From Pseudonocardia pini (lineage in GTDB: Bacteria > Actinomycetota > Actinomycetes > Mycobacteriales > Pseudonocardiaceae), in NCBI RefSeq assembly GCF_013870575.1, contig NZ_JACBXB010000003.1, forward strand, positions 1 to 39,454: DNA of 39,454 bases. The letters run 5' to 3'. Position numbers and translations under genes: made by a program. Below the pieces are notes generated by a model. It was not told the DNA's origin and made no database searches. It saw only the letters and a program-made list of their open reading frames with translations. The stretch's first letter is position 1, and every line of letters begins with the position of its first letter. This document shows, in pieces, positions 558 to 22,798 of the stretch.

Positions 558-750
558 CGGAGGGCGCCAGGCAGGGCCCGGGCTCAGGCACCCTCGGGAG
601 CCCCACTCCGCATCGGGGGGGTCGACACGGGCGGGTCTCTCCGCAGCCGGGGAGCGGTTCAGGGCACATGCTCCCCGTCGACGGACGCCCAGCATGACAG
701 AAGAAGAAGGTCAAGAGGGGCGGTGGGGCATTGTGGTCCCGACCATGCCG

Positions 751-813
751 CTGACCTGGCGGAAGCGGAGGGATTCGAACCCCCGGACCCTTTCGGGACT
801 CTCGCTTTCAAGG
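751..813 (-). repeat. Outer left attachment site (tRNA-Ser 3' half)
   Basis: These 63 bases are identical to 22705-22767, the 3' half of the intact tRNA-Ser gene, from the encoded CCA back to the anticodon loop. Similarity to the tRNA stops at the anticodon loop, and from there on the sequence resembles the left end of element A. This is the arrangement left when a tyrosine integrase inserts DNA into a tRNA gene and rebuilds its 3' end. The crossover lies somewhere inside the identity block and cannot be placed exactly. Confidence 0.9.
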
Positions 814-907: not shown

Positions 908-927
908 GTTGCTGTCAGGTTGCTGTC
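908..927 (+). promoter_or_regulatory. Candidate integrase/excisionase arm-type sites, left end of B
   Basis: Two adjacent copies of GTTGCTGTC(A) start at 908 and 919. The same 10-mer, GTTGCTGTCA, recurs at 5173, 5381, 22641 and 22654, always within about 110 bases of an attachment core. That distribution fits arm-type binding sites of a tyrosine integrase or sites for its excisionase. Binding is inferred. Confidence 0.5.
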
Positions 928-965
928 CCCCGGCGTGGCCCCGCCACGCCCTCACACTGCCCTCC

Positions 966-1143
966 GAGCGCCGTCCCGTCGACCTGGCGCAGCCCGACCG
1001 CCCGTCCGCTCGTGGGCGGCCCTCGACGCAGCCGCCGGCCGACCTACGCCAGCTCCGCCCACGAGTGGACGGGTGGTAGCCCTCGGGGAGGTCGTCGGGA
1101 CGGCGCGGGCCACCGTCCTGTTGATCTGCCCGCCGGCGAGGGC
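966..1143 (+). repeat. 178-bp structured repeat, copy 1
   Basis: Outer stem: GCGCCGTCCCGTCGACCT (968-985) pairs with 1089-1106 with one mismatch. Inner stem: 998-1019 pairs with 1055-1076 over 22 positions with no mismatch and two G-T wobbles. The tail holds GCGGGC and GCCCGC around a conserved loop containing CTGTTGATCT. Copy 2 at 6687-6864 has the same length, the same stem positions and a diverged but still paired inner stem. It lies about 165 bases before the NACHT start. It could be a structured RNA, a single-strand origin or DNA hairpin for rolling-circle replication or transfer, or a cargo boundary. Confidence 0.85.
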
Positions 1144-1308: not shown

Positions 1309-4300
1309 GTGGCAACTCCAGTTGAGACTGCCCTCTTGAGGATCGCTACAGCGATCGCCACTCAGGTTGGCAAGAATTTGCTCGCTGGACGTCTATCGAG
1401 AGCAGAACGCTCGATGACACTTTTTGAGCTTGCAACGAAGCGCGAGCTTGGCTTGAAAGCATGGCGAAGACTCGATGGGCAGCTATTCCAGTTGACCAAC
1501 GTAATAATGGAGCGTCTTGAGCCATTCGTCGAAGTAGAGTTCGCAAGGTTGCCCGAGAATGAAAGACTCGCCGCGCTCGACGGTGTTGCCGATGTCCTTG
1601 AGTCAAGACATTTTTCGGACGATGCCGTCCTTACTGCGAACCTCGACGAGAACGCCATAATTGCGTCTCTGTCCAAAATTGTATTCGAAACGAAAGCCAA
1701 CCACCTGTTGTCAGTCGACGCTCAGGAGTACTTCGACTTAATCCTCCGCGAGACAGTTGCACACCTTGCTGAGATCGCCATCACTCTACCGAGCTTTCAA
1801 GGGCGAACACTTAAAGAGCTGCTCGCGCGAGACTCTGAAATAATCTCGCTCCTTCGTGAAGTCCTGGAGAGGATGCCACGACGCGAGTCCCGCCGAGCAC
1901 TAACTCGAAGTCAGGAATTCAAGCTTACGTTCGACCGCGAGATGACTCGGTTCCTGGATCGAGTCGAGATCTTTGGAGTCACACAGTTCGGACCCAGTAG
2001 GAAGTATTCACTGAATATTGCATATATCGGCCTCACTCTCGACGCAAAAGTTGAGAGTGAGACCGATACAGCAGCGAAAGCACCTGGCCAAGTTGTCGAG
2101 TTGGGCCACGAGACCAATATCGAGAACGCGGTGGCATCGTGTCAGTATCTATACATTCGCGGGGAGGCAGGGTCCGGAAAGACTACGCTTCTAAGATGGC
2201 TAGCGCTTCAGAGCGTTACGAAGTCTCATACGAGGCAACTATACCATTGGAACAAGGTTACGCCTTTCTTGGTCGAGCTCCGAAGGTTCGCAAAGTCAGA
2301 CCTTCCAGGGCCACAAGAACTCCTCAAGAGCCTTCCTCGACATGTATCAGATCGATCGCCGGACGGCTGGGTTCACGACGTCCTCGAGTCGGGGAGTGGA
2401 GCGATATTACTTGACGGGGTCGACGAATTTCCTGCCGACCGTCGGCCAAGTCTAAGGAGGTGGATCGAATCAGTAGCTGAGTCCTACCCAGGCATTCCAA
2501 TCGTAGTGACATCTCGCCCGTCGGCCACTCCAAGTGATTGGCTAAACAGCTTAAGTTTCGTCTCAGCCGACCTTCTACCAATGTCCCGTGCGCACGTCGC
2601 ATCCTTTGTCTCGCATTGGCACTCCGCCATTTCTCGGGAGGATCCTGACGAGCATGCAATAGAGAAAGCAGACGCATTCCGTCGTTCCATGCTGGCCGCT
2701 TTGACGAGAAGCCATCCCCTACGCCAATTGGCCTCGAACCCGCTGCTGTGCGCCTTACTTTGCGCGCTCAATTGGGAGCGTCGGCAGCAGCTTCCAAAAA
2801 GTCGAATCTCCATATATAGAACCGCGCTTGAGATGCTCCTCTATCGACGCGACCACGAGAGGACAGTCGCGTACGATGCGCCTCCAATGGCTGAAGTCGG
2901 CATGCAGTACGAAGACATGATTACTGTTCTTGGCGCACTAGCCTATTGGTTTACCTTGACCGGCCAAGCCGACGCTGACGAGCGTCGAGTTGTAGCCAAG
3001 GTTGGCAAGACAATCAAAGAGATGCCTGGCCTTGATCTGACCGGAGAGGAAGCGTATAGAGCGCTGCTTGCGCGCTCAGGTGTCCTAAGAGAACCAACGC
3101 CCGGCAGGGTGGACTTTATTCATAAGAGCTTTCAGGAATATCTTGCGGCGATACGCTGTCTAGAAGAGGACTCCATCGAGGAGCTGCTCAAGAATTCGAC
3201 GCGTGACTCATACCGCGAGGTTATTGTCATGGCTTGCGGATGCGCCCGACCCAAGGAAGCGGAGGCTATAATAGGACAGCTTCTGACTCAATCTTCGAAA
3301 GCACGAATCTCGAAGGCACGGAAGTCTTACCTGCATCTCTTGGCAGTCAGCTGTCTCGAAGTGACGAAGGAGTACAGTATTGAGCTAAAGGCTCGCGTAT
3401 ACGACAACGTTGCTTCATTGACCCCGCCATCATCCCTTCAGAGTGCGCGTGTTCTCGCCACTTTGGGTGACGATGTATTCAAAATATTGCCGACCGACGT
3501 CCGGTCGTTAAGCGAGCGGACGGCCATAGCGACGCTCAATTGTGCCGCGATCGCTGGTTCTCCTCCCAGCAACGCCATCTTTCAAAACGCGGCACTTGAT
3601 ACTCGGGCGTCGATACGCAAAGCTCTCCTTAGCCTCTGGGGTCTATTTGATCCGACAGATTATGCATGCACTGTCCTAAATCGAGCCGAAGGCCACGAGT
3701 GGCGTCTACAGGTGTCCGACCCTTACGTGTTAGGCGGACTGTCGTCAGTGAAGAAGATCAAGAGCCTGGAGTGCTCGTTCAGTGGACCAATTGGAGGAGA
3801 AGAGCTCGAGCCTCTAGACGCGTCACGCGCGCTCGTTTCTTTAGCCATACGAGATAACCCTAGGATCGTGAGCCTTCAGCTAATTCCCCACATGAGCCGA
3901 CTGCGAGGTCTCCGTCTAGTCAACTGCCCCAATCTTCAATTGATCGAGGGTCTAGCACAGGCGCGCTACCTCTCCGTCCTTGAGATCGACGGTATACCAG
4001 TTGAGCTATCTTCAGACAGTATCGAGAACTTCGTCAATCTACGAAGTCTTCGCATCCATGATTCACTTGCTCTGGCTAGTCCGAGAATATTACGGAACTT
4101 TGGGCGGCTCCAGCGGCTAGACCTAGGCGGCAGGTGCGGGGTGGGTTCAACAGGTTCGCTCGGCTATAGTTCTTCCTTGGGCACGCTAATCCTGTCGCGA
4201 TGCCTCGAGTTACGCCAGGTTAACGGACTTGGGTCGCTAACAAAGCTGCAGCGTCTCGTGGTTCGAGACTGCCCGGAGCTTGAGAGTCTATGGGGGATCG

Positions 4301-4689
4301 CAGACGCGGCTGATTCTCTCAGCGAGCTCACAATTTCCGACGTAGAACACCTTCCCGACTTCCGCTTCATCGGGACACTACGGAACCTTCGTTCACTTCG
4401 GCTTGAGCGCTGCACTATTGATCGGCTTGACTCCCTGCTCAATCTTAATCAACTCGAGGTATTGCATATTGAAGAATGCACGGTCGAGAATGTTGTTGAT
4501 TTGAGCCCATTAACTCGCAGAGGTGTTGAGATCCGGGGATTGTCACCCGACGGACAGCCCATTTCAGCGCATTCTGTGCTGCACGATCTGGGCGATACAG
4601 CTGACCATCTCGACATCGAGGGATACCTATTTGAGGACCAGAATTTGGAGATTGATATCCTTCTAGAGGAGTTCGGGATCGATGACTGA
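1309..4689 (+). CDS. NACHT-domain STAND NTPase with C-terminal leucine-rich repeats (bNACHT-type defence protein)
   Basis: The protein has 1126 residues, GTG start. Residues 1-270 are a mostly helical region without an obvious enzyme motif, resembling helical N-terminal domains of bacterial NACHT proteins. The NTPase follows: Walker A GEAGSGKTT with K291, then Walker B AILLDGVDEF with D369, D372 and E373. A winged-helix/helical part contains FIHKSFQEYLAA near residue 605. Residues about 838-1075 are leucine-rich repeats (for example LRGLRLVNCPNL, LQRLVVRDCPEL, LRSLRLERCTI), giving a sensor-like C terminus. Bacterial NACHT proteins of this architecture act as anti-phage NLR-like sensors; what this one detects and how it kills are unknown. 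Base composition is near half G+C by eye, far below the flanks, so it is recently acquired. It is the only gene of element B. Confidence 0.85.
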   Translation: MATPVETALLRIATAIATQVGKNLLAGRLSRAERSMTLFELATKRELGLKAWRRLDGQLFQLTNVIMERLEPFVEVEFARLPENERLAALDGVADVLESRHFSDDAVLTANLDENAIIASLSKIVFETKANHLLSVDAQEYFDLILRETVAHLAEIAITLPSFQGRTLKELLARDSEIISLLREVLERMPRRESRRALTRSQEFKLTFDREMTRFLDRVEIFGVTQFGPSRKYSLNIAYIGLTLDAKVESETDTAAKAPGQVVELGHETNIENAVASCQYLYIRGEAGSGKTTLLRWLALQSVTKSHTRQLYHWNKVTPFLVELRRFAKSDLPGPQELLKSLPRHVSDRSPDGWVHDVLESGSGAILLDGVDEFPADRRPSLRRWIESVAESYPGIPIVVTSRPSATPSDWLNSLSFVSADLLPMSRAHVASFVSHWHSAISREDPDEHAIEKADAFRRSMLAALTRSHPLRQLASNPLLCALLCALNWERRQQLPKSRISIYRTALEMLLYRRDHERTVAYDAPPMAEVGMQYEDMITVLGALAYWFTLTGQADADERRVVAKVGKTIKEMPGLDLTGEEAYRALLARSGVLREPTPGRVDFIHKSFQEYLAAIRCLEEDSIEELLKNSTRDSYREVIVMACGCARPKEAEAIIGQLLTQSSKARISKARKSYLHLLAVSCLEVTKEYSIELKARVYDNVASLTPPSSLQSARVLATLGDDVFKILPTDVRSLSERTAIATLNCAAIAGSPPSNAIFQNAALDTRASIRKALLSLWGLFDPTDYACTVLNRAEGHEWRLQVSDPYVLGGLSSVKKIKSLECSFSGPIGGEELEPLDASRALVSLAIRDNPRIVSLQLIPHMSRLRGLRLVNCPNLQLIEGLAQARYLSVLEIDGIPVELSSDSIENFVNLRSLRIHDSLALASPRILRNFGRLQRLDLGGRCGVGSTGSLGYSSSLGTLILSRCLELRQVNGLGSLTKLQRLVVRDCPELESLWGIADAADSLSELTISDVEHLPDFRFIGTLRNLRSLRLERCTIDRLDSLLNLNQLEVLHIEECTVENVVDLSPLTRRGVEIRGLSPDGQPISAHSVLHDLGDTADHLDIEGYLFEDQNLEIDILLEEFGIDD

Positions 4690-4784: not shown

Positions 4785-5223
4785 CCTGAGTCAGGACAAC
4801 TCGTCGGTAACTTGTCGACGGCAACGTTCTGACCTGCACTTCGTTCCCGCGGCCAGTCGCGAGATGGACACTAAGAATTCGCCCGGCAGGCGTCCGTGCA
4901 AGCGGTTCGAGGCCGGTCAGCGAGCATCCTCCTGGGCTGGCCGTCGGGTGAGCCATCTCGGTATCCGCAGGTCACAAGCTCGCATCGCTCCACATAGGAT
5001 CGATTGCGGTCGTGTCTGTGGTCAAGGAGAGGGGTAAGGGCGCAGGGCGGGTTACTAATCGGCGTCCCGACTCAGGTCTGAGCCGCTCATCGACCTACCC
5101 TCGCCTGCCGGTGTCCTCCCGCAACGTTGATCAGCAGAGATCACTGGACGTGACGAGTGCTGTCGAAGACGGGTTGCTGTCAACAACTCGGCGCGAGAGA
5201 CGTGAAGACTAGTGATCATGCCT
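4785..5223. other. Right end of element B, no gene seen
   Basis: No reading frame here has plausible coding character. The last 55 bases, with GTTGCTGTCA at 5173 and AGTGATCATGCCTCTGACC next to the att core, match the right end of element A just before its tRNA copy. Confidence 0.6.
5173..5182 (+). promoter_or_regulatory. Candidate arm-type site, right end of B
   Basis: One copy of GTTGCTGTCA, about 40 bases from the inner att core. In the homologous right end of element A the motif is doubled (22641 and 22654). Confidence 0.45.
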
Positions 5224-5285
5224 CTGACCTGGCGGAAGCGGAGGGATTCGAGCCCCCGGTCACTTTCGTGACGCTCCTTTCAAGG
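5224..5285 (-). repeat. Inner attachment site between elements B and A
   Basis: This is a diverged copy of the tRNA-Ser 3' half. The acceptor and T-arm part is kept (GGCGGAAGCGGAGGGATTCG), but the variable arm and anticodon stem differ from the outer copies by several bases and one deletion. The tRNA 5' half is absent, so it is not a tRNA gene. It marks the junction of the two elements. Confidence 0.85.
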
Positions 5286-5380
5286 TGCGCTGGGCCGCTG
5301 GTCAAGGCGGCGTTCTGGCTGCTCAGCCGTTCATCGGCGTTCGGCTCGGGACGGGCTGAGTGGACCGGGTTGCGGCACGG

Positions 5381-6164: not shown

Positions 6165-6770
6165 ATGCAGGAGACAGTTGCCCTGCCAGCCCTTATCGTT
6201 GCCTTCTTGGCCCTAGCAGTCTCAGGCTACCTAGCATACCGACAAGCATCCTTGATGCGGTTATCGAATCAATTGCCACTCCTCATCGACTTGATTCGCG
6301 AGCTTCGCTCAACTGAATTCCTAGAGCGCGAGAGGTTCGTCAATTCTGAACTTAAAGGCTACGACCCAGGACTTGGCTACGCTGACTTACCTGAGGAAGC
6401 AGCAGACAATCTTCAGCACGTGAAGTCTCTCTTCGACTCGATTGGCGCATTGGTCGCCTTCAAAGTCATCGACGAGAGAGCTGCGATCTCCATCTTTGGC
6501 TTCCGTGCCAAGCGTGCTTGGGCTTCAATGCAGCCTTTTGTCGAAGTTGAGCGCGGCAAGCGAGCAGGCAATTATGGACCATACTTTGAGCACTTTGTGT
6601 GCCTCATCGAGGAGACGCCACCAGAGAAGATCACCAAGGACCTCCGGCTTAGGAGACTCCCCGCCAGCGTGAGCAAGCCACGCGAAGAGCGCCGTCCCGT
6701 CGACCTGGCGCAGCCCAACCACGCGGCCGCCCGTGGGCGGCCCGACACGCCACCTCCGGCCGACTTCTGA
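6165..6770 (+). CDS. Membrane-anchored DUF4760-like protein whose 3' end reads into a repeat
   Basis: It has 201 residues and an ATG start behind the strong ribosome site AAGGAGG. The N-terminal membrane helix (residues 7-25, LPALIVAFLALAVSGYLAY) is followed by a helical domain with LIDLIRELRSTEF, LFDSIGALVAFKVIDERA and YGPYFEHFVCLIEE, as in DUF4760. From residue 175 the frame is encoded by structured repeat copy 2, so the last 27 residues (starting EERRPVDLAQP) are unlikely to be the original tail. The gene may have been cut when the repeat and its cargo arrived. Function unknown; it may form a pair with the divergent membrane protein upstream. Confidence 0.6.
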   Translation: MQETVALPALIVAFLALAVSGYLAYRQASLMRLSNQLPLLIDLIRELRSTEFLERERFVNSELKGYDPGLGYADLPEEAADNLQHVKSLFDSIGALVAFKVIDERAAISIFGFRAKRAWASMQPFVEVERGKRAGNYGPYFEHFVCLIEETPPEKITKDLRLRRLPASVSKPREERRPVDLAQPNHAAARGRPDTPPPADF

Positions 6771-6864
6771 CGCGCCGCCCGCGGGTGGCCGTGTGGTAGC
6801 CCTCGTGGAGGTCGTCGGGACGGCGCGGGCCACCATCCTGTTGATCTGCCCGCCCGGCGAGGGC
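6687..6864 (+). repeat. 178-bp structured repeat, copy 2
   Basis: Outer stem 6689-6706 with 6809-6826 is identical to copy 1. Inner stem 6719-6741 with 6774-6796 forms 23 pairs, three of them wobbles. Against copy 1, stem positions 8 (T-A to G-C) and 13 (T-A to C-G) change on both strands, and position 5 changes from C-G to G-T; single-strand changes at positions 3 and 16 also keep pairing. The loop between the inner arms is poorly conserved. It lies 158 bases before the methyltransferase start. Confidence 0.85.
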
Positions 6865-7022: not shown

Positions 7023-8237
7023 ATGTCGACGTCCTTCCGGGTTGCCGGCCTCTTCGCTGGCATTGGCGGCATCGAGCTCGGTTTTCACAACGTGCTGGGA
7101 AGCGCTCTCGACACCACGCTGCTGTGCGAGGTTTGGGAGCCCGCGCAGAAGGTCCTCAAGGCCAACTTCCCCGACGCCGACCTCTACGACGACGTGGCAA
7201 CGCTTCGAGATCTACCTGAGAACCTCGACCTCGTCGCAGCAGGATTCCCCTGCACCGACCTCTCCCAAGCAGGGAGAACCGCGGGCATCCGCGGCAAACA
7301 ATCGGGCCTGGTCTCGCACCTGTTCGAGATGCTCGAGCTCGCCGAATCGCGACAGCACAAGCTCCCGTGGCTGCTCATCGAGAACGTGCCCAACATGCTC
7401 ATGCTCGACCGCGGCGAGGCGATGGCCTACCTCGTCAAGGAGCTCGAGAAGCTCGGCTACTCCTGGGCCTACCGAGTCGTCGACTCCCGGTTCACCGGAG
7501 TACCTCAGCGCCGCAGGCGCGTCATCCTGCTCGCTTCCCGCAGCGAGGACCCGCGGGCCGTGCTGTTCCCGGACACCGGCGTCGAGCTCGACGTCGCAGC
7601 GCTTCGCTCCGACGCGTTCGGCTTCTACTGGACAGAGGGCCGCGGCGGCCTCGGATGGGCGCAGGACGCCACCCCGACCTTCAAGGGCGGCTCCACCATC
7701 GGCATCCCCTCGACGCCTGCCGTCTGGCTGCCTGAGCGCACAGATGGGCCGCAGGTCGTCGTCCCCAGCATCGAGGACGGTGAGGCGCTGCAAGGCTTCA
7801 CTCGGGGCTGGACGGCTCCCGCCGACCTCGGCAGGCGCAACGGCCCCCGATGGAAGCTCGTCGGCAATGCGGTCACCGTCCGCGTGGCCGAGTGGATCGC
7901 GCGCCGGCTGCAGAACCCCGGCACGTTCGACATGGAGTCGCGGGAGTGGCATCGCTACCGCGCCTGGCCCTCGGCTGCGTGGGGCCGCGACGGCGCCGTG
8001 TGGACCGTCAACGTCACCGAGTTCCCCGAGCTCCAGCCCTACTCCCACCTCGGAGACCTGCTGACGCTCGACGACGCCACGAGCCTCTCCCATCGGGCGA
8101 CGGCCGGCTTCCAGAAACGACTGCACTCCGGGAACCTCGGCCAGTACCCCGGATTCCGGGACGCGATCGCCCAACACGTGGCCTTCATGGACCCGCTCAA
8201 AGGGCAGCAGGAGCTCACACCCGTCCCCCTGAGCTGA
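7023..8237 (+). CDS. DNA (cytosine-5-)-methyltransferase
   Basis: It has 404 residues. It transfers a methyl group from S-adenosylmethionine to cytosine C5 in DNA. Motif I is VAGLFAGIGGIELGF at the N terminus. Motif IV is GFPCTDLSQAG with the catalytic Cys at residue 77. Motif VI is LIENVPN, motif VIII QRRRRVILLAS, and motif X GNAVTVRVAEWIARRL. About 90 residues follow motif X, more than in minimal enzymes. The variable region between motifs VIII and IX, which sets specificity, is of normal size; the target cannot be read from sequence. A PD-(D/E)XK nuclease gene begins 60 bases downstream, so this is the modification half of a probable type II restriction-modification system protecting element and host DNA. 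Confidence 0.95.
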   Translation: MSTSFRVAGLFAGIGGIELGFHNVLGSALDTTLLCEVWEPAQKVLKANFPDADLYDDVATLRDLPENLDLVAAGFPCTDLSQAGRTAGIRGKQSGLVSHLFEMLELAESRQHKLPWLLIENVPNMLMLDRGEAMAYLVKELEKLGYSWAYRVVDSRFTGVPQRRRRVILLASRSEDPRAVLFPDTGVELDVAALRSDAFGFYWTEGRGGLGWAQDATPTFKGGSTIGIPSTPAVWLPERTDGPQVVVPSIEDGEALQGFTRGWTAPADLGRRNGPRWKLVGNAVTVRVAEWIARRLQNPGTFDMESREWHRYRAWPSAAWGRDGAVWTVNVTEFPELQPYSHLGDLLTLDDATSLSHRATAGFQKRLHSGNLGQYPGFRDAIAQHVAFMDPLKGQQELTPVPLS

Positions 8238-10466: not shown

Positions 10467-10526
10467 GTGGGCCGGGGACCGGCCGGAGGCCGCATGCCCC
10501 GGCCCGGCGCCAGCCGCTTGATCAGG
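10467..10526 (+). repeat. Hairpin repeat, copy 2
   Basis: Outer stem GGGCCGGGG (10469-10477) pairs with CCCCGGCCC (10497-10505) around hairpin CGGCC-GGA-GGCCG (10480-10492), followed by GCTTGATCAGG. Orientation is the same as copy 1. Here no plus-strand gene ends nearby: both neighbours run leftward, which argues against a simple terminator role. Confidence 0.7.
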
Positions 10527-10842
10527 TAGAGAAACTCTGAACCCCTGAGCGTTTACGCCGCTGTCGGGCCCCGCCTGATCGGTGACACCCCGGCTTCAGC
10601 TGATGGGTGACGCATCGACGCCACGCAGCCGAACTGCTCCGCAATCTTGTCACCATGTCCGCACACGGAAGACCAGGCTCGACTGGTACCTCCGTCGGTC
10701 GGCAGGGCCAAGGGATCGCCAGGAGGGCCGCCCCGACGACCATGGATCCAGCCGCGCGTGTCCTACCAAAGTTCAACCCACGCCCGTAATGACCGCTTCG
10801 CGAGCTCAAGCAGGCCTACCGAACCCGATCCGAGCTACCGGC
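10527..10842. other. Intergenic stretch, no gene seen
   Basis: It lies between the hairpin repeat and the stop of the PHP-SMC-like gene. Short frames exist on both strands but show no ribosome site or recognisable protein. Confidence 0.5.
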
Positions 10843-13656: not shown

Positions 13657-13795
13657 TGATATCCTCAGAGAACTAGTCGCCAGCTTAGTTGGTGCGTCGC
13701 CAGATCGTGAAATTAACACGCAAGAAGATCGATTTACTCAGTCACTGGCAGTACCTTCACTGTATCGCGAGATAGGGCTGCTAAAGCTCCCCTCC

Positions 13796-14500
13796 TTACC
13801 CTAAATCCTCGGCCCCCGGGCGGGTGCTCTCGTTTCTCGACCTAACGAGCTCTTCCATGAGCTTGATCAGTATGTCGGGCTCGTAGGACCTCAGGGTGGG
13901 TTCCTTCTCCGGTCTGTTGGCGAACGCGATTACAGCGGTTCCGGCGGCTCGGGCTGCTTGGATGTCGGTCACGGAGTCGCCGATGAGGACAGCTTCGGTA
14001 GGCGCGGCGGCCCGCTTATCGAGCGCTCGACGGAGCAGATAGGGCTTCGGCTTGAGGTCCTCCGTGCGCGACCGAGTCCGGCCGACGATGCCCTCGATCT
14101 GGTCGCCCAGCCTGTGCAGCTCGACGAACGCCAGGATCGCCGACTCGGAGTTGTTGCTGACGATGGTGATCGTGTGACCACTCCCCCGTAGCGCCTTGAT
14201 CGCGTCGAGCACCCCGGGTGTCGGGGTGGCAGTCAGGACCGTCCTGCCCTCCTCCGCCGCGAACGCCTGCTCCGCCTTCTCGGCGAGCTCGGGCTCGTGC
14301 TGGTCGAAGTAGCGCAGGACGACGAAGGCGTCGTCGGCCTGGGATACCTCCGGGGGGAGATGCGCCATACGGTCGCCCAACAGTCGGCGCATCGCGTCGC
14401 CGGACTCCCGTCCTCGGTCGCCGGGAAAGACCGCGCAGACCGGGCCGTCGAAGTCGAGCAGGACATGGCAGCGCTCCGCGAGGAGCTGGGCGAGCGTCAT
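13796..14500 (-). CDS. HAD-superfamily hydrolase
   Basis: It has 234 residues. Motif I is LLDFDGPVCAVF (D16, D18), motif II TIVSNNS, motif III KPKPYLL and motif IV VLIGDSVTDIQAA, the standard order for a phosphoglycolate-phosphatase-like HAD enzyme with a helical cap at about residues 20-90. The start codon overlaps the stop of the GntR gene (ATGA), so the two are coupled. In actinomycete integrative elements a GntR gene followed by a small-molecule-acting enzyme is a recurring pair, as pSAM2 pairs KorSA with the Nudix protein Pif. A role in control of transfer is inferred; the substrate is unknown. Confidence 0.85.
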   Translation of the reverse strand: MTLAQLLAERCHVLLDFDGPVCAVFPGDRGRESGDAMRRLLGDRMAHLPPEVSQADDAFVVLRYFDQHEPELAEKAEQAFAAEEGRTVLTATPTPGVLDAIKALRGSGHTITIVSNNSESAILAFVELHRLGDQIEGIVGRTRSRTEDLKPKPYLLRRALDKRAAAPTEAVLIGDSVTDIQAARAAGTAVIAFANRPEKEPTLRSYEPDILIKLMEELVRSRNESTRPGAEDLG

Positions 14501-15351
14501 CGGGCGAACGGGCGCGCGACGCTGCCCCACACGCTGTCGAACCACATCTTCGACTGGGCGACGTACTGGGAGGCGAGGGTGTCTGGGTCGCTGTCGGCGC
14601 TGTGGTGGAACAGCGTGGCGTCCTTGCCCATCAGGTCCCACATGGGGATCTGGTCGCCGTCGAGCTTCACCGTGTGTTCCTGGACCGGGTAGTAGCCGAA
14701 GAACACCTCGGCATCGTTGATCACGTAGAGCTTGAACAGCGGCACCGCGGGCGCGACCCGCACCTCCGCGGCGGCATCGGCGACAAGACCGAGCTCGCCG
14801 AGCTCGTTGACTGCCTCGACGACGGCCTCGGTGTGGCGCTGCATGATTCCGGTCGCCCGTGCCCGGAACGCCGGGCTGTCCGCGAGCCCGTCGACCGTCG
14901 CCGGGAGAGTCCACGGCTGCGCGGGGTCCGGGACCAGGATCCGAACCCTGATCGACTCGGGGCGCACCTGGCCGGCGCGGATCTTGTCGAGTGGCTCGGA
15001 CATCGCGCCATGCAGGGTCTCGCCGGAGAACCCGGCGAAGTCGACGGTGACCTTCTCAGCCTCGAACGCGCGCTCGATGTGTGGCCGGAGCCCGACCGGA
15101 CGCTCGGTGCGCTCGCGCACGAACACCCCGCTCCCCTGCCGAGAGACGACGAGCCCCTCCTCACGCAGCACGCGGATGGCCTGCTGCGCGGTCATGCGGG
15201 CGACGCCGTAGCGCTTGGCCAGCTCGGGGCCAGACGGCAGCTTTTCACCAGGCTTGAGCGAACGTGTCAGGATCGCTGCACGTAGAGCGCTCGCCACCTG
15301 CCGGTACGGCGGGCGCGGGTCGTCGGGATCCAAGTCCTGCATGCCGTTCAC
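14497..15351 (-). CDS. GntR-family regulator (KorSA-like)
   Basis: It has 284 residues. Residues 12-78 are the GntR winged helix: PPYRQVASALRAAILT, LPSGPELAKRYGVARMTAQQ and LVVSRQGSGVFV. The rest is a long C-terminal effector domain rich in VRVRILVPDP and FHHSADSDPDTLASQ segments, unlike classical FadR or UTRA domains. It probably represses the rightward element operon and itself, as KorSA does in pSAM2; the intergenic region holds a near-palindrome. The start is GTG at 15351, or ATG at 15342, which has AGGG seven bases upstream. Confidence 0.85.
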   Translation of the reverse strand: MNGMQDLDPDDPRPPYRQVASALRAAILTRSLKPGEKLPSGPELAKRYGVARMTAQQAIRVLREEGLVVSRQGSGVFVRERTERPVGLRPHIERAFEAEKVTVDFAGFSGETLHGAMSEPLDKIRAGQVRPESIRVRILVPDPAQPWTLPATVDGLADSPAFRARATGIMQRHTEAVVEAVNELGELGLVADAAAEVRVAPAVPLFKLYVINDAEVFFGYYPVQEHTVKLDGDQIPMWDLMGKDATLFHHSADSDPDTLASQYVAQSKMWFDSVWGSVARPFAR

Positions 15352-16878: not shown

Positions 16879-17061
16879 TTGAGCCTCAACGTCGACCGCA
16901 CCATCGAAGACCTCGACCAGTCCATGCGGGAACTGCGCAGCGCCTTGCGCGGCATCCCCTTCCGAGCAGGTGGGTTCAAGAACACCCACGACAAGCTCAC
17001 CCGCGCCGTGGCCCATCTCGTCGTCCTCCTCGACGCCTCCCGCGCCACGTTCCGCGAGTAG
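16879..17061 (+). CDS. Small helical AICE protein, TTG start
   Basis: It has 60 residues. The TTG start sits behind AAGGAG. Helical, with heptad-like spacing (IEDLDQSMRELRSALRG, KLTRAVAHLVVLLDAS). Function unknown. It is the last small gene before a strong hairpin and the DNA-pump gene. Confidence 0.6.
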   Translation: MSLNVDRTIEDLDQSMRELRSALRGIPFRAGGFKNTHDKLTRAVAHLVVLLDASRATFRE

Positions 17062-17079
17062 ACGCACCACCCCGTCACG

Positions 17080-17123
17080 CCCCGCAGGCCGACAGCCGGA
17101 TCCGCGCCAACCGGCCTGCGGGG
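17080..17123 (+). terminator. 12-bp stem-loop ahead of the transfer gene
   Basis: CCCCGCAGGCCG (17080-17091) and CGGCCTGCGGGG (17112-17123) pair perfectly around a 20-base loop, 32 bases before the traB start. Without a T-tract it may be a terminator of the small-gene operon, an attenuator setting pump expression, or a processing site. Confidence 0.55.
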
Positions 17124-17155
17124 CACCCATCCCCCACACCGTGAGGCCCATCCCC

Positions 17156-18574
17156 ATGCGCTCCGTCACCTTCCACAACCTGACCCCCGTGCACCCCGTC
17201 GGCACCCGTCCCGGCCGCGGCTCGCACCGGTCCACCGGCCGCGAATGGCGCGTGTTGGCGTGGCTGTGCCGTCACCCGCTGTTCCTGCTCGTCCCCGCGG
17301 CGATCGTCACGGGCTTCGTCCTGCTCGGGCCGATCGTCACCGGCTCGATCGTCGGCGGCCTGATCCTCGCCGTCGTGAGCTGGCGGCGTGGTCACCCGCC
17401 CTCGTTCGACCGGTTCCTCGCCCCACGTCTGCGCTCGACCCGGCGCCGCTGGACCGCCTACGCCGGTGGCCGCTGGGCGGGCGTGCTCGCCGAGTGCGAC
17501 CTCGCCCGGGAGAACCGCCGCACCGGACAGGTCACCGTCCCCCGCGTGCTGCGGGTCCGCTCGTCCACGCCCTCGATCGACACCGTGTACGTCCGCATGG
17601 CCCGCGGTCAGGACCTGCGCACCTGGACCGAACGCGCCGAGGCCCTCGCCGACGCGCTGCTCACACATCGGGTCGCCATTACGCGAATCAGGCCCGCCGT
17701 CCTCGCGGTGGTCGTCGAGCGGGTCATGCCGTTCGACCGCGTCATCCCTGCCCCGGAGATCCCCGCCGACACGGCCGACGTCGACCTCCACGCCCTGGAC
17801 GTCGGGGAGAACGAGTACGGCGACCCGTTCACGATCAGGCTGCCGGGCAAGCACTTCCTGACCGCCGGCGCGTCCGGCTCGGGCAAGGGCTCGCTGATCT
17901 GGAGCCCACTGTGCGCGCTCGGGCCCGCCATCCGCGACGGCCTCGTGCGCGTCCACATGATCGACCTCAAGGGCGGCGTCGAGACCCGACGTGGGGCGCG
18001 GCTGTTCCACCGCTACGCCACCACCGCCCGCGAGGCCATCGACCTCCTCACCGACGCCCGCGACGAGATGAAGGCTCGCCAGGCCGCTATGGACGGCGAC
18101 CGGGCCCTCACGGTCAGCCGGGAGACCCCGCTCAACGTGATCATGATCGACGAGATGGCGATGCTCACCGCCTACGGCGAACGCGGCGACGTCCGCGAGG
18201 CCCTTCGCCTGCTCGCCGAGATCCTCACCCAGGCACGGGCCACCCTGACCACAGTCATGGGCTACGTCCAGGAGCCGACCAAGGACGTCGTCGACGTCCG
18301 CGAGCTGTTCACCACCCGCATCTGCCTCGGCGTCACCTCCGCCGCCCATGTCGACATGGTGCTCGGCGATGGTGCCCGCGAGCGAGGAGCACTCGCCGAC
18401 CAGATCCCCGGCGACCCCGCACACGCGGGAATCGGGTTCGTCATCGACACCGGGTCGCGACTGCCCGTCCGCTTCCGCGCCGCGTACGTCGACGACCACG
18501 AGATCGACGAGCTCGTCGAGCGCTGCGCCATCCACCCGCCCGTCCGCGCACTGCCCGAGAACGGGGCGGCGTGA
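17156..18574 (+). CDS. FtsK/SpoIIIE-type DNA translocase (TraB/TraSA-like conjugation protein)
   Basis: It has 472 residues. Two membrane helices lie near residues 35-75 (LFLLVPAAIVTGFVLLGPIV, then GGLILAVVSW). The motor domain has Walker A GASGSGKGS with K244 and Walker B VIMIDEMAML with D332 and E333, followed by QARATLTTVMGYVQEPTKDVV and TRICLGVTS as in FtsK family motors. Such proteins form a hexameric pore and move double-stranded element DNA between mycelia in actinomycetes. The length is shorter than chromosomal FtsK and normal for AICE pumps. The start was set at the ATG after the hairpin; the membrane segments follow directly. Confidence 0.9.
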   Translation: MRSVTFHNLTPVHPVGTRPGRGSHRSTGREWRVLAWLCRHPLFLLVPAAIVTGFVLLGPIVTGSIVGGLILAVVSWRRGHPPSFDRFLAPRLRSTRRRWTAYAGGRWAGVLAECDLARENRRTGQVTVPRVLRVRSSTPSIDTVYVRMARGQDLRTWTERAEALADALLTHRVAITRIRPAVLAVVVERVMPFDRVIPAPEIPADTADVDLHALDVGENEYGDPFTIRLPGKHFLTAGASGSGKGSLIWSPLCALGPAIRDGLVRVHMIDLKGGVETRRGARLFHRYATTAREAIDLLTDARDEMKARQAAMDGDRALTVSRETPLNVIMIDEMAMLTAYGERGDVREALRLLAEILTQARATLTTVMGYVQEPTKDVVDVRELFTTRICLGVTSAAHVDMVLGDGARERGALADQIPGDPAHAGIGFVIDTGSRLPVRFRAAYVDDHEIDELVERCAIHPPVRALPENGAA

Positions 18575-18789
18575 TGTGGGCCGTCACAGGGTGGGCAGTC
18601 GCTACCTGGCTCAAGCTCACCGCACTGCTCGCCGTCGCAGTCGGCGTCGTCTGGCTGGTCTACGGCACCGGCTCCGGCTGGTTCTGGACCGCCTGCGCCG
18701 CCGCCGTCCTCGCCGAGGTCTGGATCGTCCGCGGCCTGAGCGGTGAGTGGGCGTACGAAGCCCGCGCGAGCTGGTGGTGGGCCAAGTGA
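18574..18789 (+). CDS. Small two-helix membrane protein (Spd-like position)
   Basis: It has 71 residues and starts on the last base of the traB stop (TGATG). Two membrane helices (TWLKLTALLAVAVGVVWLVY and FWTACAAAVLAEVWIV) make up nearly the whole protein. In this position actinomycete elements often encode small membrane proteins tied to intramycelial spread; that role is by position only. Confidence 0.7.
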   Translation: MWAVTGWAVATWLKLTALLAVAVGVVWLVYGTGSGWFWTACAAAVLAEVWIVRGLSGEWAYEARASWWWAK

Positions 18790-20111
18790 GCGCCACCGTC
18801 AGTCAGCGGCTCCGCTCCTTCGACTACTCCACCTGGCGCGCTCGGGTCGAGGCCACCGGTGGCTGCGCGCACCCGGTCCGGCTGCGCGGTTCGTCCACCG
18901 TCGCCACTCCCGACGGGACCGTCCTCGCGCAGCGCACCGGGGAGGTCTGGGCGCCGTGCGGGAACCGCCGCGACACCGTCTGCCCCGCCTGCTCGGACCG
19001 CTATGCCGCCGACGCCTTCCACCTCATCCGCGCCGGACTCGCTGGCAACGAGCACCACGTGCCCGACACCGTCACCGATCGGCCCCGACTGTTCCTCACG
19101 CTCACGGCGCCCTCGTTCGGGCACGTCCACACTCGACGACTGTCCGCCCGCGGCCGTGTCATCCCCTGCTCCTGCGGGGCTCACCACCAGGCCAACGACC
19201 CGAACATCGGCGGCGCGATCGACCAGGACACGTACGACTACGAAGCCGCCGTGCTCTGGCAGGCCCACGCCGGAAAGCTCTGGCACCGCTTCGCCATCGC
19301 GCTCCGGCGCGCCCTGGCCGCTCGCCTCGGCGTCTCCGGCCGCCGCTTCGGCACCGTCGCGCGTCTGTCCTACGCCAAGGTCGCCGAGTACCAACGCCGC
19401 GGCCTCGTGCACTTCCACGCCGCCCTCCGCCTCGACGGACCCGACGGGCCGACCGACCCACCACCAGCCGGGATCACCGCCGAGGGTCTACGCGACGCCA
19501 TCCATGAAGCCGCCACCGCGACCGCCCTCGATGTCGAGCGGCCCGATGGCACGACGCTGAACCTGCGCTGGGGTGCGCAACTCGACCTCCGCGAGATCAC
19601 TCCCATCGCTCACGACGCCGTCACCGACGAGGCCGGCGAGATCACCGACACCCGGTTGGCCGGCTACATCGCCAAGTACGCCACCAAGGGCACCGGCAAG
19701 AGCGACGGTCATCCCGACCGCCCGATCCGCTCGCTGGCCCACCTCGAGCGCATGGCCCTGGCGGACCACCACCGACGGCTGATCGAGACCGCTTGGCACC
19801 TCGGCGGCCTGTCCCAGTACGCGGAGCTGAACCTGCGCAAATGGGCGCACATGCTCGGGTTCCGTGGCCACTTCCTCACCAAGAGCCGCGCCTACTCGAC
19901 GACCTTCCGGGTCATCCGCGGCGACCGTCGCGCCTGGCGCCTCGCCGAGCAGCTCGACCAGCTCGGCCACCCCGCCGACGAGCCCGTGATCGTCGTCAAC
20001 GACTGGCACCTGGTCGGCATCGGCCATCGCAACGAAGCCGACCGCGAACTCGCCATCGCCCACGCCGAACGCATCCGAGAGCAGCGCAGGACCACGAGGG
20101 GGACGTCATGA
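18786..20111 (+). CDS. RepSA-type replication initiator
   Basis: It has 441 residues; the GTG start overlaps the previous stop (GTGA). An N-terminal cysteine cluster (CGNRRDTVCPACSDRY) precedes RLFLTLTAPSFGHVH and the HUH motif GLVHFHAALR, with YIAKYATKG as the likely catalytic tyrosine region (TRLAGYIAKYATKG). This matches RepSA of pSAM2, a rolling-circle initiator that nicks the double-strand origin of the excised circle; the length is close to RepSA. The C-terminal segment has LRKWAHMLGFRGHFLTKSRAYSTTF, a family hallmark. It probably enables autonomous replication before transfer. Confidence 0.9.
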   Translation: MSATVSQRLRSFDYSTWRARVEATGGCAHPVRLRGSSTVATPDGTVLAQRTGEVWAPCGNRRDTVCPACSDRYAADAFHLIRAGLAGNEHHVPDTVTDRPRLFLTLTAPSFGHVHTRRLSARGRVIPCSCGAHHQANDPNIGGAIDQDTYDYEAAVLWQAHAGKLWHRFAIALRRALAARLGVSGRRFGTVARLSYAKVAEYQRRGLVHFHAALRLDGPDGPTDPPPAGITAEGLRDAIHEAATATALDVERPDGTTLNLRWGAQLDLREITPIAHDAVTDEAGEITDTRLAGYIAKYATKGTGKSDGHPDRPIRSLAHLERMALADHHRRLIETAWHLGGLSQYAELNLRKWAHMLGFRGHFLTKSRAYSTTFRVIRGDRRAWRLAEQLDQLGHPADEPVIVVNDWHLVGIGHRNEADRELAIAHAERIREQRRTTRGTS

Positions 20112-20320
20112 GTCAGCAGAGCAGCCCGGCCATCGCGCGTGTCTTCCTCACCGTCGAGGAGGTCGCTGAAGCGTTGCAGATCGGCCGGACCCGCGTGTTC
20201 ACGCTGCTCGCGGCCCGGGAGATCACCTCTGTGAAGATCGGCAACCTGCGCCGCATCCCGGTCGACGCCGTGCACGAGTACGCCATGCGCCTCGTCCAGC
20301 TCGAACGAGAGGCGAGCTGA
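20108..20320 (+). CDS. xis: Excisionase (HTH, MerR-like)
   Basis: It has 70 residues, starting within the rep stop (ATGA). FLTVEEVAEALQIGRTRVFTLLAAREITSVKIGNLRRIPVDAVHEYAM is the winged helix-turn-helix of the excisionase family that bends DNA at att sites and directs integrase toward excision. It overlaps the integrase start by one base (TGATG), as in pSAM2 and relatives. Confidence 0.9.
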   Translation: MSQQSSPAIARVFLTVEEVAEALQIGRTRVFTLLAAREITSVKIGNLRRIPVDAVHEYAMRLVQLEREAS

Positions 20321-21537
20321 TGCCCGCGGGGAAGAAGCGCGCGAATGGTGAGGGGTCGATCTACAAGCGCGCCGACGGTCGCTTCGTCGGGTCGGCCGTC
20401 GTGCCGGTCGCAGGTGGTGGGCGCCGCCGTCGCTACGTCTACCGCGACACCCGCGCGGACGCCCGCGAAGCGCTCGACGACCTGCTCCGCGATGCGAAGG
20501 CAGGCGTACGACGTCCGCTCAAGCGGCAGACGCTTGGCGACTACCTCGACTACTGGCTCGAGGAGGTCGTGAAGCCCGAGCGGCGGCCCACCACCTACGC
20601 GGGCTACGAGACGATGGTCCGCGTACATATCAAGCCCGTGCTCGGCAAGGAGAAGCTCGACGAGGTGGGGCCTGCCGAGGTTCGGAAGCTGCTGGCCGTG
20701 CTGCGCGACAAGGAGACCACCGGGCGCGGCGGCGGGCCTCGGAGGCTCTCGCACCGCATGGTCCAGTTCGCCCACGCGGTGCTGCGCAACGCGCTCTCGA
20801 ACGCCGTCCGCGAGGAGCTGGTCAGCCGCAACGCCGCGAAGCTGGTGAAGATGTCGAACCCCGAGTACGACGTCGGCGCCGGCCTCGACCCGATCGCCGC
20901 CCGCGCGCTGCTCAAGCACATCGCCGACGACCGCCTATTCGCGCTCTACCTCTGCGCGATCGTGCTCGGGATGCGGCGCGGCGAGCTGCTCGGGCTGACC
21001 TGGGACGCGGTTGACCTCGACGGGCACCGGCTCGTGGTTCGCCAGTCGCTGAGCTGGGTAAAGGGCCGCGCCGTCCTGCTGCCGCCGAAGACTCGCGCCT
21101 CGCGCCGGGTGATCCCGCTGCCTGAGGTTGTCGTGACCGCTCTGCGCGATCACGCCAAGACGCAGGAGGACGAGAAGCTCGCAGCTGGGGAGGTCTGGGA
21201 GGACACTGGGTTCGTCTTCACCACTCGCCGCGGCGCCGCCATGTCGCCCTACACGCTGGGGAAGTACTGGCGGGATCTCCGAGACGCCGCAGGTCTCGGA
21301 ACCCTGCGCTTCCACGACCTCCGCCACACCGCCGTGTCGCTACTCCTGGCTCTCGGCGTGCCTCCGCACGTTGTCCGGGAGATCGCGGGACACAGCGATA
21401 TCAAGGTCACGATGACCGTCTACGCACATGGCAATATCGGAGAGAAATCGGCAGCATTGAACCGCCTCGGGGAGGCACTGACCAGCGCCACTACAGTTCG
21501 CCCCTTGCGCAATATCCATTCATCGCGAGACAACTAG
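20320..21537 (+). CDS. int: Tyrosine site-specific integrase
   Basis: It has 405 residues. An N-terminal AP2-like arm-binding segment (ANGEGSIYKRADGRFVGSAVV) and a SAM-like core-binding domain (TLGDYLDYWLEEVVKPERRPTT) precede the catalytic domain. Visible active-site residues are R219 (LGMRRGELLGLTW), H332 and R335 (HDLRHTAVS), H358 (AGHSD) and Y368 (MTVYAHG). It recombines the element circle with the 3' end of tRNA-Ser(UGA), 1.2 kb away. Because element B has matching ends, this enzyme is the obvious candidate to move B as well. All catalytic residues are intact. Confidence 0.95.
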   Translation: MPAGKKRANGEGSIYKRADGRFVGSAVVPVAGGGRRRRYVYRDTRADAREALDDLLRDAKAGVRRPLKRQTLGDYLDYWLEEVVKPERRPTTYAGYETMVRVHIKPVLGKEKLDEVGPAEVRKLLAVLRDKETTGRGGGPRRLSHRMVQFAHAVLRNALSNAVREELVSRNAAKLVKMSNPEYDVGAGLDPIAARALLKHIADDRLFALYLCAIVLGMRRGELLGLTWDAVDLDGHRLVVRQSLSWVKGRAVLLPPKTRASRRVIPLPEVVVTALRDHAKTQEDEKLAAGEVWEDTGFVFTTRRGAAMSPYTLGKYWRDLRDAAGLGTLRFHDLRHTAVSLLLALGVPPHVVREIAGHSDIKVTMTVYAHGNIGEKSAALNRLGEALTSATTVRPLRNIHSSRDN

Positions 21538-22704: not shown

Positions 22705-22767
22705 CTGACCTGGCGGAAGCGGAGGGATTCGAACCCCCGGACCCTTTCGGGACTCTCGCTTTCAAGG
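22705..22767 (-). repeat. Outer right attachment site inside the intact tRNA-Ser
   Basis: The 63 bases are identical to 751-813. Here they form the functional 3' half of the tRNA gene, with the 5' half continuing to 22798. Confidence 0.9.
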
Positions 22768-22798
22768 CGAGTGCATTCGGCCGCTCTGCCACGCTTCC
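22711..22798 (-). tRNA. tRNA-Ser(UGA)
   Basis: On the minus strand the acceptor stem GGAAGCG pairs with CGCTTCC. The D-arm is GCAGAGCGGCCGAATGC, the anticodon arm CTCGC-CTTGAAA-GCGAG gives anticodon TGA, a long variable arm (GTCCCGAAAGGGTCC region) is typical of serine tRNAs, and the T-loop is GGTTCGAATCC. CCA is encoded. It is the integration target of both elements and remains intact. Confidence 0.95.

Follow-up and report, generated by a model that had tools for sequence, protein, structure and literature searches.

The window, by which we mean the whole stretch of 39,454 nucleotides from Pseudonocardia pini analyzed here, carries two copies of a non-coding module whose single-strand fold is under selection and whose 3' tail can form a second helix in competition with the first. 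In the copies that are linked to a RepSA gene, the module keeps a fixed strand and a fixed order relative to that gene, and these copies belong to one class of actinomycete integrative element (AICE). Based on its position, its strand, a second conserved box and an analogy with ICEBs1, the best reading appears to be that the module is a single-strand-origin-like cis element of this RepSA-type class; its activity is putative, and we give the proposal a chance that falls somewhat short of even. A covarying module with a fixed strand and order, present in 31 of 46 sampled genera, is a directly testable candidate.

Two tandem elements at one tRNA gene

The window holds two elements in tandem at a single tRNA-Ser gene (table 1), and duplicates of the 3' end of this gene (family D5) lie at 741, 5214 and 22695. 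Element 2 is a pSAM2-type AICE, with RepSA, an FtsK-type Tra protein, a tyrosine integrase and a tRNA att duplicate; a small reading frame between rep and int is excisionase-like by position. Element 1, which is also flanked by att sequences, carries copy 1 of the module and an NNH1-NACHT-LRR gene. Neither a rep nor an int gene was found in element 1, and the second conserved box is absent from it, the best match having 9 mismatches. Element 1 looks like a relic or a mobilizable satellite. The sequence-only reading had proposed RepSA-type replication for both elements, which fits element 2 but not element 1, where no replicon was found. A direct repeat between the left att-like copy and copy 1 could possibly provide integrase arm sites. 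The same reading had described two equally long module copies, at 966-1143 and 6687-6864; both are there, and they are 87% identical. A DUF4760 reading frame (6165-6770) enters copy 2, as if the module had cut or replaced the end of the frame.

Table 1. Features of the window, with positions in other loci marked by locus
Feature	Position	Strand	Remark
att-like copy of tRNA-Ser 3' end	741..813	-	left end of element 1
Direct repeat TTGCTGTC	909..927	+	between att and copy 1
Module, copy 1	961..1143	+	model R1 match, 158 bits
H1 outer stem, 5' strand, copy 1	968..985	+	pairs with 1089-1106
H2 mini-hairpin, copy 1	986..994	+	3 bp, loop GCA
H3 inner hairpin, copy 1	997..1077	+	arms 997-1019 and 1055-1077; sequence drifts, pairing kept
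H4 mini-hairpin, copy 1	1080..1088	+	3 bp
Conserved tail, copy 1	1107..1143	+	abrupt end at GGCGAGGGC
NNH1-NACHT-LRR protein (NLR-like)	1309..4689	+	element 1 cargo
att-like copy of tRNA-Ser 3' end	5214..5286	-	junction of elements 1 and 2
Module, copy 2	6682..6864	+	model R1 match, 156 bits
C5 DNA methyltransferase (type II)	7023..8237	+	element 2 cargo
Second conserved box, GC-rich stretch first	10487..10544	+	box proper 10517-10544
958-aa ATPase, AAA/SMC domains	10843-13719		cargo 3' of box; best PADLOC match Ppl
GntR-family regulator	14497..15351	-	element 2, AICE backbone
FtsK/SpoIIIE-type transfer protein	16970..18574	+	element 2
RepSA replication initiator	18747..20111	+	element 2, ~1245-nt domain-match class
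Tyrosine integrase	20320..21537	+	element 2
tRNA-Ser (TGA)	22711..22798	-	target gene, right end of element 2
Tandem arrays 3' of module	L083:8437-8595, L105:6457-6623, L117:6292-6615		periods 22, 59 and 55 bp

The fold of the module

The outer stem is the same in both window copies, as had been claimed from the sequence, and the inner stem shows two-sided changes at positions 5 (C-G to G-U), 8 (T-A to G-C) and 13 (T-A to C-G), together with a wobble-compatible single change at position 3 (G-U to A-U). An iterated profile search of the fetched loci yielded 55 module copies, 41 of which (near full length, score above 75, with one of two identical plasmid copies) were aligned by sequence only. 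In this alignment of copies from the genus, the module folds as a four-way junction with helices of 17, 3, 22 and 3 bp, and the inner stem keeps its pairing in the further homologs while its letters drift. The main fold is paired in 95.8% of 1843 cells compared with 86.4% in column shuffles, and pairing is only 37-51% when the partners are slid by 1-3 columns. Two-sided changes occur in 25 of the 45 pairs, and none of 500 shuffles was as high for pairing or for two-sided changes. Single copies are also unusually stable, both with RNA parameters (z = -3.9 for copy 1 and -5.6 for copy 2; 0/200 shuffles equal) and with DNA parameters (z = -3.0 and -4.1; 1/200 and 0/200 shuffles equal). Thus, by RNA and DNA folding and by covariation, the module has two properties looked for in a single-strand origin: it is non-coding and it is able to fold single-stranded. 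The earlier claim of a selected single-strand fold is strongly supported by the covariation of the main fold and of the tail helix described below.

Because the module is near-palindromic, the opposite strand of copy 1 also folds (z = -4.4). On the given strand, G-U cells outnumber A-C cells in the main fold by 111 to 23, or by 57 to 23 without the two pairs whose consensus is G-U, but when the count is made by base pairs, some G-U is found in 18 and some A-C in 18; the given strand is therefore favored as the folding one rather than proven. A search of Rfam 15 returned nothing at the gathering score and only weaker matches below the curated scores, in keeping with the earlier statement that the module was not recognized as a described RNA family.

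A competing tail helix

The tail, about 37 nt at the 3' end of the module, partly repeats the 5' strand of H1, and in copy 1 its segment 1114-1127 can replace that strand in pairing with the 3' strand of H1. The H1 helix and the tail helix are mutually exclusive. The tail helix is paired in 97.1% of 490 cells, with two-sided changes in 6 of 12 pairs, and slid partners give 27-50% pairing. No shuffle among 500 was as high for pairing, two-sided pairs or covariation score, and 28 of 500 were as high for further pair types. Given that the tail repeats the H1 5' strand, a protein site shared by the three segments could also make them covary; the excess of G-U over A-C (37 and 5 cells, in 8 and 4 of the 12 pairs) speaks for pairing over such a site. 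This competing helix is new, it is shown by covariation, and it makes a specific prediction that is open to probing.

Association with one RepSA class

We divided RepSA genes by the length of their domain match into classes of ~1190-1280 nt, ~1320-1430 nt and more than ~1440 nt, and compared their positions with those of the hairpins among the matches listed: 120 hairpins and 115 full-length RepSA matches in the genus, leaving out incomplete RepSA matches and the shadow matches that the palindrome gives on the opposite strand, and 128 hairpins and 132 RepSA matches in other genera, leaving out the own genus. Counts of absence are upper bounds, because they are based on the matches listed. In the genus, a listed hairpin lies within 25 kb of 36 of the 48 RepSA genes of the ~1190-1280-nt class, always on the same strand, and it lies 5' on that strand for 35 of the 48. 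In other genera, the class comprises 52 genes: the hairpin is 5' and on the same strand for 31, on the opposite strand for 2 and not among the matches listed for 19. Strand agreement within 25 kb, among the matches listed, thus amounts to 36/36 in the genus and 31/33 elsewhere, and genes of the class with no listed hairpin amount to 12/48 and 19/52. For the two longer classes, the genes with a hairpin listed no farther than 25 kb away number 0/19 and 2/48 in the genus and 5/26 and 2/54 in other genera.

Counted from the hairpins listed, a RepSA of the ~1190-1280-nt class lies 3' within 25 kb for 39 of 103 in the genus (G080 aside) and for 32 of 128 in other genera, which leaves 64 and 96 without one; contig ends, relics and matches beyond those listed account for part of these. 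In two elements (G114:C1:1921384 and G161:C49:5083) the module and RepSA are convergent and ~210-260 bp apart, an arrangement that differs from that of the other elements listed.

A second box shared with rolling-circle plasmids

At eight loci of other genera, a GC-rich hairpin followed by the box CTTGANNAAGTAGAGAAAGTYTGAAC, or a near-identical sequence, is found 142-206 bp past the module, and at four further loci of other genera the module and the box are separated by 51, 374, 874 and 991 bp. A looser form of the box (up to 3 mismatches), whose pattern was refined on loci included in the counts, has 57 matches in 35 of the 62 genomes of the genus; the reversed pattern has none. Among the matches listed, the nearest hairpin is 5' on the same strand for 36 of these boxes, 3' for 2 and missing for 19, and a RepSA of the class is 3' on the same strand for 30 and missing for 27. 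All 26 elements of the genus in which all three are listed have the order hairpin-box-RepSA. The gap between hairpin and box ranges from ~0.2 to 5.5 kb in the genus and that between box and RepSA is steady (4.8-6.5 kb in 26 of 30), which suggests that cargo is mainly inserted between hairpin and box. Since the two may be as much as ~5.5 kb apart in Pseudonocardia, they need not act jointly.

The box is also present in pIJ101, with 4 mismatches, and blastn from pIJ101 finds it in pSN22, pJV1 and pTSC2. It lies on the rep strand in all four plasmids, the rep gene of pIJ101 being on the minus strand by tblastn. By tblastn, the Rep of pSN22 has no match in the RepSA plasmids compared, and none of the four plasmids is among the listed matches of the RepSA search. 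A box common to two initiator families is what would be expected of a site read by the host, such as a single-strand origin, and we regard it as a candidate part of either a single-strand origin or clt. We considered the box as a double-strand origin, as its CTTGA presumably resembles the pC194-type nick, and set this aside as the less probable reading, since pIJ101-type plasmids, whose Rep finds no RepSA, carry the box too.

Searched with model R1, neither pIJ101 (up to E = 1) nor any of three RepSA plasmids from beyond the family sample has a match; two of the three are from Streptomyces, and the third, though recorded as Kutzneria, has a Streptomyces title. Nonetheless, in three of five RepSA records outside the range of R1 the 420 nt 5' of the box contain a giant hairpin (z = -8.4, -6.4 and -7.0, from shuffles that preserve single-base composition only; 0/40, 2/40 and 0/40 random stretches as low, the null for L201 including its own second hairpin). 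In two of three whole plasmids, no other 180-nt window of the scanned strand is as stable as the giant hairpin. The fourth record has a strong fold made of short repeats (z = -4.0; 2/40 random stretches as low), and the fifth has no standout fold 5' of the box (z = -1.6; 11/40). Among the other plasmids, pTSC2 has a strong fold 5' of the box (z = -5.5), and no standout fold was found there in pIJ101 (z = -0.4), pSN22 (-1.5), pJV1 (-3.0) or the S. silaceus plasmid (0.4). These observations hint that some of these elements share an origin layout in which a giant hairpin precedes the box and the sequence itself is free to vary. In the S. formicae plasmid record (L201), which contains one AICE-like unit in tandem copies, two boxes were seen, and a strong hairpin precedes either one on its 5' side.

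Flanks and neighboring genes

The 5' flank of the module is weakly conserved beyond ~20 nt, averaging 0.17 bits between -100 and -30. A -10-like TANNNT within 45 nt 5' of the hairpin was found in none of 40 genus copies (40 of the 41 aligned; control windows 0-2) and in 3 of 22 copies outside the genus (controls 1-5). No consistent T-run follows the tail among the 41 genus flanks listed. We therefore rejected a function as a terminator for Pseudonocardia; in several copies from other genera (L127, L133, L134, L138, L142 and more) a T-rich stretch comes after the tail, and GC-rich hairpins lie between it and the box. Nine of 51 copies have a tRNA T-loop pattern 170-215 nt upstream of the module, against a background of 0.13 per 1500 nt.

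By a crude gene call, genes next to the module are on either strand and in all orientations, and no same-strand gene at a steady distance was found, as there would be for a leader RNA or riboswitch. A leader of defense genes had been suggested by the first three cases, in which a gene starts 159-166 bp 3' of the module, and was rejected when later loci showed genes on both strands. The genes near the module encode NACHT, TIR-TPR, AAA/AbiEii-like, Mrr with PIN, SLATT and C5 methyltransferase proteins and, by annotation, AIPR. Of 29 neighbor genes tested, 14 have no Pfam family and several others are not defense-like. In Pseudonocardia, the cargo between hairpin and box is often defense-like. 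The NNH1-NACHT-LRR gene of element 1 (1309-4689) is unmatched by any PADLOC model of the 2023 set. As the module flanks a place where defense genes are loaded, it may help to find new anti-phage systems.

Copies outside AICEs and taxonomic range

Some copies are dispersed. One genome (G080) has at least 17 copies and no RepSA match; there, DUF222-HNH genes accompany the module at four tested loci (L083, L089, L092 and L094) and, by alignment, at L081 and L088, with starts on the opposite strand ~360-570 bp upstream of it. Among the matches listed, G147 has at least 18 copies, one of them with a class RepSA 3', and G096 has at least 14 copies, none of them so placed. In each of these two genomes, 9 of 10 fetched loci have in common 350-612-bp stretches that include the module and lie at unrelated places, with neighbor genes in all orientations. 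One unit in each of G080, G147 and G096 has a tandem array of short repeats after the module. The dispersed copies could be carried along by amplified repeats, or the module could itself be mobile. At another locus (L123, in G087), three module copies lie in the same direction within ~6 kb, and an RNase P RNA gene is 1.5 kb 5' of the first.

A search with model R1 detects the module in 47 of the 62 genus genomes, in 55 of 100 genomes drawn from the family (own genus included; 31 of 46 genera) and, with three weak matches, in 1 of 37 genomes from the order's other families. Whenever a search covered more than 40 genomes, its filters were strict, and weak matches are lost by them. The genome of another family at locus L197 (G188) has weak R1 matches of 57-63 bits. 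An exact pattern searched in named genomes matched 32 stretches, 31 of them in Pseudonocardiales/Pseudonocardiaceae-genus records, most named contigs being Pseudonocardia; some of the genera concerned we take to belong to Pseudonocardiaceae. The remaining match is labeled as a Planctomycetota MAG and is perhaps a misbinned contig. With the repeat as query, blastn found strong copies in genomes of the same genus and, against plasmids, only two matches, both in Pseudonocardia plasmids. Two exact patterns had no match in viral contigs, and blastn with copy 1 had none in phages.

A proposed mechanism

If the module is a single-strand origin, the AICE would excise and replicate by rolling circle, and the displaced strand, which we take to be the rep-coding one, would become single-stranded. 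This strand would fold as DNA into the four-way junction, host factors may then read the junction, and second-strand synthesis would start there, priming the lagging strand. The tail could displace the H1 5' strand, so that two states of the module are possible and the tail may act as a switch. A broader proposal, which we find rather unlikely, is that the module is a putative portable single-strand switch, a junction whose outer stem is contested by the tail, that controls the single- to double-strand conversion of RepSA elements and multiplies itself, which would account for the many copies at unrelated places in some genomes. Such a switch, if true, would amount to a novel type of signal for replication or mobility, or to a novel structured RNA, and would flank the slot that holds much of the anti-phage cargo of Pseudonocardia AICEs.

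Alternative explanations

The single-strand origin was suggested by the sequence-only reading and is made more plausible by the position and strand of the module relative to one RepSA class and by a box common with rolling-circle plasmids; it does not extend to element 1, which has no replicon. More generally, a place in a rolling-circle element is seen for the RepSA-linked copies and not for element 1 and the dispersed copies. Also counting against a single-strand origin are the 64/103 and 96/128 listed hairpins with no class RepSA 3' within 25 kb, the two listed hairpins of other genera that are opposite in strand to a nearby RepSA, the equal folding of the opposite strand of copy 1, the blank R1 search of pIJ101 and the plain folds 5' of the box in pIJ101, pSN22, pJV1 and the S. 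silaceus plasmid. Moreover, the G-U excess could equally mean RNA. RNA switches typically have mutually exclusive helices, G-U pairs are common in the module and form the consensus at two positions, and the changes in the tail are mostly G-U compatible (the 37 to 5 cells given above). These features would suit a structured non-coding RNA on the same strand, with a cloverleaf and an alternative tail helix, that acts in trans on copy control, excision or cargo. We consider such an RNA unlikely in view of the weakly conserved 5' flank, the TANNNT counts (no higher than controls in the genus, and covering promoters of the TANNNT type only), the lack of a consistent T-run past the tail in the listed genus flanks and the lack of an Rfam match at the gathering score. 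A double-strand origin cut by RepSA would, as a Rep-specific site, explain why the module is mainly tied to one RepSA class, but the loop is poorly conserved, the 41-copy alignment contains no conserved CTTG (which we take to be the type of nick sequence to seek), and many copies are far from any listed RepSA; this makes it very improbable.

The dispersed copies bear on another explanation, namely that the module is a folded single-stranded end or recombination site of mobile units, of an HUH- or tyrosine-recombinase-like kind, with AICEs as one of several users. The abrupt 3' boundary of the module, the G080 copies, four of which were tested and have DUF222-HNH neighbors, and the shared module stretches at unrelated places in G147 and G096 all point in this direction. 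The tie in strand and order to RepSA and the box does not, and the direct pair of copies in the window consists of two tandem elements at one tRNA gene, so that we hold this explanation to be distinctly unlikely. For the same reason we rejected, for the pair in the window, a cassette or attC array, which the direct copy pairs had suggested. The module might instead be a transfer or maintenance locus (clt-like, partition or incompatibility) that is bound in its folded or its double-stranded form. According to the available sections of PMC4170104, Streptomyces plasmids whose TraB is of the FtsK type move double-stranded DNA from the clt locus; the AICE Tra is of the same FtsK type as Streptomyces TraB, and the box is near the GntR-tra block. 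Double-stranded recognition would have no need of an inner stem whose letters drift while pairing is kept, and we judge such a locus quite improbable. We thus retain the single-strand origin as the preferred reading.

Comparison with known systems

Our search of the literature, which lay mostly outside subscription papers, found none that joins single-strand origin, Streptomyces and AICE. In the available portions of the AICE survey (PMC3218068), the word sso is absent from the main text and the conversion of AICEs from single- to double-stranded form is not described. By sequence and structure, no relation was found between the module and pIJ101, whose sti locus presumably lies near korB; the hairpin has no match in pIJ101, and the box alone is in common. 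The strand logic is nevertheless the same, as the box of pIJ101, pSN22 and pJV1 is on the rep strand. The sti locus is the single-strand origin of pIJ101, and pIJ702 lacks a single-strand origin, as stated in the accessible part of PMC4170104. Like pSAM2-type AICEs as described in the consulted part of the survey (PMC3218068), element 2 has RepSA, an FtsK-type Tra and an integrase in a tRNA gene; a difference is its module, which is mainly tied to one RepSA class in Pseudonocardiaceae.

The nearest systems appear to be sso1 of ICEBs1, an established single-strand origin in another ICE, and the plasmid origins of pBAA1 and pTA1060 with which it is grouped in the available part of PMC4595007. 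The module differs from these three in its four-way junction, its competing tail helix and its dispersed copies, and the likeness is one of description. As far as that part of the source describes it, sso1 resembles the module in being non-coding, in having several predicted stem-loops and, as far as the RepSA-linked copies go, in lying within an integrating rolling-circle element in an orientation that is fixed relative to RepSA in nearly all listed cases of the module.
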